Of a stretch of 64,000 nucleotides of DNA, positions 33,646-33,755 are shown one piece after another; positions within the stretch are counted from its first letter, which is position 1; every line of letters starts with the position of its first letter. The DNA lies in the IMG/VR virus record IMGVR_UViG_3300037492_000170, positions 1 to 64,000 of that record, one strand, 5' to 3'. This DNA comes from a virus. Under the pieces are notes generated by a model. It made no database searches. It saw only the letters and a program-made list of their open reading frames with translations, and was not told where the DNA came from. The translations under genes were made by a program, and so were the position numbers.

Positions 33646-33755
33646 CGTGCGGCGGCTGTATCAGGTACTTCGTGTAACTGGTTAAACACTCTTCCTAATC
33701 GGGAGACTTTCTGGGTTCAAATCCCAGAGTACCCCTGATACAAATATTACCCACG
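33646..33755 (+). ncRNA. Y-like RNA unit 4, with a nearly complete tRNA-like domain
   Basis: Lower helix CGTG (33646-33649) with CACG (33752-33755), extended by GTA/TAC outside. Loop CGGCGGCT and AAATATTACC. Upper helix GTATCAGG (33658-33665) with CCTGATAC (33734-33741). TACT (33666-33669) pairs with AGTA as the inner end of an acceptor-like stem. Next come a D-like arm GTGT-AACTGGTTAA-ACAC, an anticodon-like arm TCTTC-CTAATCG-GGAGA and a T arm CTGGG-TTCAAAT-CCCAG. The acceptor is too long, has a CC bulge and lacks CCA, so it is not an ordinary tRNA. It fits a YrlA-type Y RNA with a tRNA-mimic head. Confidence 0.75.

Follow-up and report, generated by a model that had tools for sequence, protein, structure and literature searches.

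A predicted phage Y RNA that carries a tRNA-like head in standard arm order beside a Ro60 gene

The Ro locus and its Y RNA array

The window analysed here is a stretch of 64,000 nucleotides of viral DNA, positions 1 to 64,000 of the 122,744-base record IMGVR_UViG_3300037492_000170. It carries five Y-like units that form an array immediately 5' of a gene for a TROVE/Ro60 protein (Table 1), and a profile built from phage Ro proteins, that of the window included, matches the solved Ro60 and Rsr chains. The fourth unit (unit 4) is the subject of this study; the Ro gene lies 1.15 kb downstream of it and is the first gene past a cluster of tRNA genes. A promoter of the sigma-70 type with 12/12 consensus matches stands before the array and is also found in a close relative, contig L001, while a promoter scan at the looser threshold of the tool gave 2 promoter-like sites against 2.3 expected.

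The five units have a common signature, namely an outer helix, a bulged pyrimidine, a GG/CC or GU/AC step, a second helix, and UACUUC. Elsewhere in the record a loose pattern for this signature finds only a few scattered single matches. Unit 1 is the weakest, with an unconvincing D arm and a fold at shuffle level (z 0.08). The basal stem and UACUUC signature also adjoins Ro genes in Xanthomonas, Caulobacter, Brevundimonas, Streptomyces, and Microcystis phages; in the halovirus HGTV-1 a looser match stands directly 5' of the Ro gene.

Several other structured elements occur in the window. A strong hairpin that ends in GTTTTTT, and resembles a terminator or attenuator, lies between unit 4 and the tRNA cluster (33768-33828, +). 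Between tRNA-Met and tRNA-Ser is a structured stretch (34156-34256, +; AGTGG..CCACT and GGGGATG..CATCCCC) which is missing from L001 and is possibly a degenerate Y unit. The cluster also holds a tRNA-Tyr(GTA)-like gene with an encoded CCA (34694-34779, +) that both ARAGORN and Rfam missed; its T loop, GGCGGTA, lacks UUC, and the tRNA-Tyr of L001 is called by ARAGORN. Four matches to the int-alpA RNA (RF02996) above the gathering score lie on the minus strand (47188-47257, 54388-54457, 57359-57426, and 60941-61010).

Table 1. Features of the Ro locus, parts of unit 4, and the RNA ligase gene in the window
Feature	Position	Strand	Description
RNA ligase	17115-18125	+	Upstream of tRNA-His; RNA-repair context, separate from the Y RNAs
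Promoter before Y array	33280-33307	+	Perfect sigma-70 type, TTGACA-16-TATAAT, TG before -10
Y-like unit 1	33338-33469	+	GU/AC replacing GG/CC; TTACTTC; T-arm-like hairpin CTTGG-TGCAAAT-CCAAG
Y-like unit 2	33485-33552	+	Small stem-loop type, fold z -2.5
Y-like unit 3	33562-33630	+	Small stem-loop type, fold z -2.8
Y-like unit 4	33644-33757	+	Full extent
Unit 4, basal stem 5' strand	33644-33656	+	Putatively Ro-binding; P1, bulged C, GG, CGGC loop
Unit 4, P2 5' strand and signature	33657-33671	+	Includes conserved UACUUC
Unit 4, D arm	33672-33689	+	4 bp, GTGT-AACTGGTTAA-ACAC
Unit 4, anticodon-like arm	33690-33706	+	5 bp, TCTTC-CTAATCG-GGAGA, loop CUAAUCG
Unit 4, T arm	33711-33727	+	CTGGG-TTCAAAT-CCCAG, loop UUCAAAU
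Unit 4, 3' part	33728-33757	+	Acceptor 3' strand, CC bulge, P2 3' strand, loop, CC, P1 3' strand
tRNA cluster	34003-34780	+	ARAGORN: Asp, Met, Ser, Thr, Leu, Leu, Asn; plus Tyr-like gene
Y-like unit 5	34804-34868	+	Small, directly 5' of Ro, fold z -2.8
TROVE/Ro60 protein gene	34908-36470	+	PF05731 7e-25; phrog_850; vWA motif DVSGS

Predicted structure of unit 4

The initial annotation had described a cloverleaf inside a Ro-type stem, and this structure is indeed present over the extent given in Table 1. From the outside inwards, unit 4 consists of a Y-type basal stem, an acceptor region, and the D, anticodon, and T arms; both the minimum free energy fold and direct parsing of the arms recover the tRNA order that had been proposed. 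That fold reaches -36 kcal/mol (z -2.9), and 2/200 shuffled sequences folded as well. The two ends of the RNA form P1 (GACGTG/CACGTT, 6 bp), which is followed by a bulged C at 33650, the GG/CC step (33651-33652/33750-33751), a small internal loop, and P2, a helix of 9 bp (TGTATCAGG/CCTGATACA, 33657-33665/33734-33742). The TACTTC at 33666-33671 comes next, and its TACT pairs with AGTA at 33728-33731 (4 bp), which a CC bulge at 33732-33733 separates from the 3' strand of P2. The acceptor runs unbroken into the basal stem as 9 bp, CC bulge, and 4 bp, and the description of an acceptor of 12 bp with a CC bulge was accurate, the count being 12 or 13 bp according to the GG/CCCC register chosen. The U8-like TC noted earlier also holds, since U8-C9 is supplied by the UC of UACUUC, and the D loop (AACTGGTTAA) carries A14, G18G19, and A21.

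Paired ends with the bulge and GG/CC signature of the other Y units, together with an adjoining Ro60/TROVE gene, are what a Ro-associated Y RNA presents, and both the structure and the Ro linkage of unit 4 are well supported. Small Y RNAs beside phage and bacterial Ro genes have the same basal stem with bulge, GG/CC, and UACUUC, but only a short loop where unit 4 has its tRNA-like head. One feature counts against a Y RNA: UACUUC is partly paired into the acceptor of unit 4, whereas it is unpaired in most other units.

Resemblance to tRNA

As the initial annotation anticipated, an automatic caller labels the head as tRNA-Ile(AAT): ARAGORN does so at 33663-33735, although it called none of 20,000 dinucleotide shuffles of unit 4, and the Rfam tRNA model scores 32.2 bits (cut-off 29). 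At the sequence level the cloverleaf has the elbow nucleotides of a tRNA (A14, G18G19, A21, and UUCAAAU), so that in its D-loop GG and its T loop, as in being recognised by ARAGORN, it is like the canonical tRNA genes of phages. These two calls and the tRNA cluster downstream would suit a genuine but degenerate tRNA-Ile(AAU) gene, or a tRNA pseudogene, that stands among the Y units by chance. This is nevertheless very improbable for several reasons. As had been observed, no CCA follows the acceptor, while it is encoded in 9/9 of the other tRNAs called by ARAGORN in the window. What follows is CCCC and then TGATACAA, which is base-paired, so that no free 3' end is left on the acceptor strand. 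In place of a 7-bp acceptor with a 3' CCA or an end to which CCA could be added, pairing continues past position 73 and runs through CCTGATACA. The decoding loop is also unlikely, as nucleotide 26 is lacking, position 37 is C, and positions 32 and 38 could pair (C32-G38); to our knowledge, AAU is not expected as an isoleucine anticodon in bacteria. Finally, the basal stem and UACUUC of unit 4 match the plan of the adjoining units.

The Y stem could alternatively be a scaffold for processing or protection, with RNase P or RNase Z freeing a tRNA from it. Some related units of other phages lend themselves to such a role: the nested head of the L206/L226 family retains, as read from sequence, a CCA 3' of its acceptor, and the head of L233 scores 64.2 bits as a tRNA. 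Release of a tRNA from unit 4 is hardly credible given its lack of both a CCA and a free 3' end and its improbable decoding loop, and CCA is missing in most members of the class described below. A further noncoding RNA with a tRNA-like domain is tmRNA, but unit 4 has no tag reading frame, and its head sits inside a Y basal stem beside Ro.

Comparison with YrlA

Unit 4 had initially been interpreted as the tRNA-mimic head of a YrlA RNA. It most likely is a Y RNA linked to Ro whose head mimics a tRNA, whereas the assignment to YrlA does not hold. YrlA (RF02553) resembles unit 4 in being a noncoding RNA linked to Ro, in having a basal stem, and in bearing a tRNA-like head that includes T and D arms; it is often found beside a Ro gene. 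Its crystal structure (6CU1) is a circular permutation of tRNA (PMC11472068). The RF02553 consensus runs in the order stem, T arm, small hairpin, D arm, stem; the T arm precedes the D arm with an acceptor hairpin between them, the Ro stem takes the position of the anticodon, and there is no anticodon arm. Unit 4, by contrast, possesses an anticodon arm, follows the tRNA order (D, anticodon, T), and carries its Ro stem as an extension of the acceptor stem, and on these grounds it was rejected as a YrlA head.

The YrlA covariance model, proposed as a check in the initial annotation, agrees with this, as RF02553 failed to match unit 4 at E<=5 in a search of the region and matched nothing at E<=0.001 in the whole record. 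It does match permuted units of other phages (L006, 55.9 bits; L010, 43.0 bits; both under the gathering score of 69). A weak match (22.6 bits) was seen at 34289-34407 (+), across the junction of the tandem tRNA-Ser and tRNA-Thr genes; taken in sequence, the 3' half of a tRNA and the 5' half of its downstream neighbour resemble a permuted YrlA head. YrlA is modified by TruB and DusA (PMC8394870), and by analogy unit 4 may likewise attract tRNA-modifying enzymes.

Standard-order Y RNAs in other phages

In 2014, Y RNAs with tRNA-like domains were reportedly described from phages. Viral contigs were scanned with patterns derived from the spacing of unit 4 (GGYG, UACUUC, 36-54 nt, GGTTCRA). This layout was found at 154 viral loci, 48 of which have a Ro gene, compared with 0/80 control loci from a looser 14-base pattern that collects chance loci only (Fisher p 1.7e-10); the control is imperfect in that the looser pattern differs in make-up from the class pattern. 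The frequency of the class is a lower bound because the pattern demands both UACUUC and GGTTCRA. With near-copies left out, Y RNAs in standard order (D, anticodon, T) comprise about 14 sequence families on some 25 contigs (L110; L117/L137/L157; L119/L121; L130; L140/L147/L152; L185/L233; L187/L206/L226/L242; L198/L200; L208; L236; L244; L245; L288; and unit 4 with L001). Two sub-layouts can be distinguished. In the first the head is closed by a short acceptor of its own or, as in unit 4, is fused to the stem; in the second the T arm is followed by a separate hairpin in place of the acceptor (L117, L119, L198, L236, and L244).

In 15 parsed cores of standard order, one of them that of unit 4, pairing extends to nearly every position of the three arms (D, anticodon, and T), with several pair types at most arm positions; the arms were parsed directly, MAFFT having misaligned the stems, and the parse takes the best-pairing arms and so leans towards pairing. 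A P2 helix of at least 8 bp occurs in 30/84 units, compared with about 8% of swapped 3' strands, which is moderately informative. Standard and permuted units can share one Ro locus (for example in L110, L236, and L121), and in L121 and L236 RF02553 matches the adjoining unit and skips the standard-order unit. On a tree of Ro proteins the standard-order units are scattered, with 13 changes of which 11 are forced by well-supported branches, but gains cannot be counted on this tree, since the truncation of many loci makes absences unreliable. In 84,980 cellular genomes, scanned with one stricter pattern, 18 matches were found, and the only one beside a Ro gene, in a Cytophagaceae MAG (L278), reads as the permuted layout. 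Judged by the Rfam model and the literature examined, the topology of this class appears to be new within a known RNA type, although earlier reports of YrlA may contain standard-order cases.

In the collections searched, L001 is the sole close relative of the window. The DNA of unit 4 found no match in phage records; a search through the DNA polymerase recovered L001 alone, and a search through the portal recovered L001 and one distant phage (L293), where neither Ro nor a tRNA nor a Y motif occurs in the stretch examined. L001 has near-identical copies of units 4 and 5, and with this single relative there is no covariation within the lineage. Where the window has units 1-3, L001 has a different segment that bears an ORF and other Y units. 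The exchange of units 1-3 and the retention of units 4 and 5 therefore indicate that the arrays change quickly around conserved members. The ORF in this segment of L001 (about 1520-2040) resembles an HNH-type homing endonuclease.

Annotation as tRNAs and origin of the heads

ARAGORN calls tRNAs, with assorted anticodons, in 15/21 standard-order units, as against 1/18 permuted and 0/35 small units. For example, in the phage csAssE-Sib (OR575929) the tRNA-Tyr (L288 3666-3738) and tRNA-Lys (L288 3811-3884) of the GenBank annotation are each contained in a Y unit and are unlikely to be tRNAs. The head of L110 is nearest to tRNA-Met genes and that of L233 to a tRNA-Gln. A derivation of each head from a nearby tRNA of the same phage was considered and is not established, as unit 4 has no clear tRNA donor. 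The resemblance of the L110 and L233 heads to tRNAs, together with the CCA in the L206/L226 heads, fits repeated capture of tRNAs, with the donors unproven. The heads were perhaps built several times from different tRNAs.

Proposed mechanism

Unit 4 is likely to be a phage Y RNA held by Ro, with a head derived from a tRNA in normal order that is not charged and that recruits tRNA-recognising proteins. Its basal stem would be gripped by the Ro60/TROVE ring protein of the phage itself, and the tRNA-derived cloverleaf of D, anticodon, and T arms would be joined through its acceptor stem onto this Ro handle. With the acceptor fused to the handle, unit 4 should be neither aminoacylated nor decoding. 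If the RNA is expressed during infection, the intact elbow sequences, G18G19 and UUCAAAU, could draw tRNA-recognising proteins to the Ro RNP; candidate partners include PNPase, TruB or Dus enzymes, and tRNA-processing or tRNA-cleaving enzymes. With a blocked acceptor end and an exposed anticodon arm, the elbow, which unit 4 has in common with YrlA, is the likeliest recognition site. A model for such an arrangement is RYPER, the complex of Rsr, Y RNA, and PNPase (PMC8394870), after which the Ro ring would probably sit on the basal stem and a tRNA-recognising partner on the head. Because the units bear different heads, the array would provide a single phage Ro with several adapters.

The anticodon arm may offer an additional surface and possibly a bait for anticodon nucleases. 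In a stronger form of this idea, the head would be a decoy that titrates or misdirects anticodon nucleases, with decoding restored by the tRNAs and RNA ligase of the phage. Such a role is compatible with a Y RNA and differs over the purpose of the head. In its favour, unit 4 and the other standard-order units have an anticodon arm, which permuted YrlA lacks, and YrlA has itself been proposed as a competitive inhibitor of an anticodon nuclease (PMC7790460). The same phage also has both a tRNA cluster and an RNA ligase, and therefore invests in tRNA upkeep; the N-terminal part of the ligase resembles the Rnl5/DraRnl type by eye. The anticodons of the class, however, point to no common nuclease target (AAU, CAU, GCU, UUG, UGU, UUU, GUA, and others), and a search of the record found neither RtcB nor an AAA_33 kinase domain. 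A decoy is as such rather unlikely to be the purpose of the head, and recruitment of tRNA-recognising proteins to a Ro-held Y RNA is the preferred reading.

Implications

More broadly, it is conceivable, if still speculative, that phages repeatedly fuse whole normal-order tRNAs through the acceptor to a Ro handle, that the exposed anticodon arm serves to engage or neutralise host enzymes acting on tRNA, for example anticodon nucleases, and that the products are annotated as tRNAs. If true, Y RNAs that mimic tRNA would come in a second topology, in addition to the permuted YrlA. The tRNA-mimicking Y RNA known from structural work is permuted and has no anticodon arm, and the phage class shows that such heads occur in two topologies. 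This makes it testable which part of a tRNA, the elbow, the acceptor, or the anticodon, is used by the Ro machinery.

There are also consequences for the annotation of phage genomes. Some phage 'tRNA genes' adjoining Ro, including the two in OR575929, may not be tRNAs, and mislabelled Y units of this kind bear on studies of phage tRNA repertoires. Above all, the standard-order class offers a way into the question of how Ro and its Y RNAs may benefit phages.
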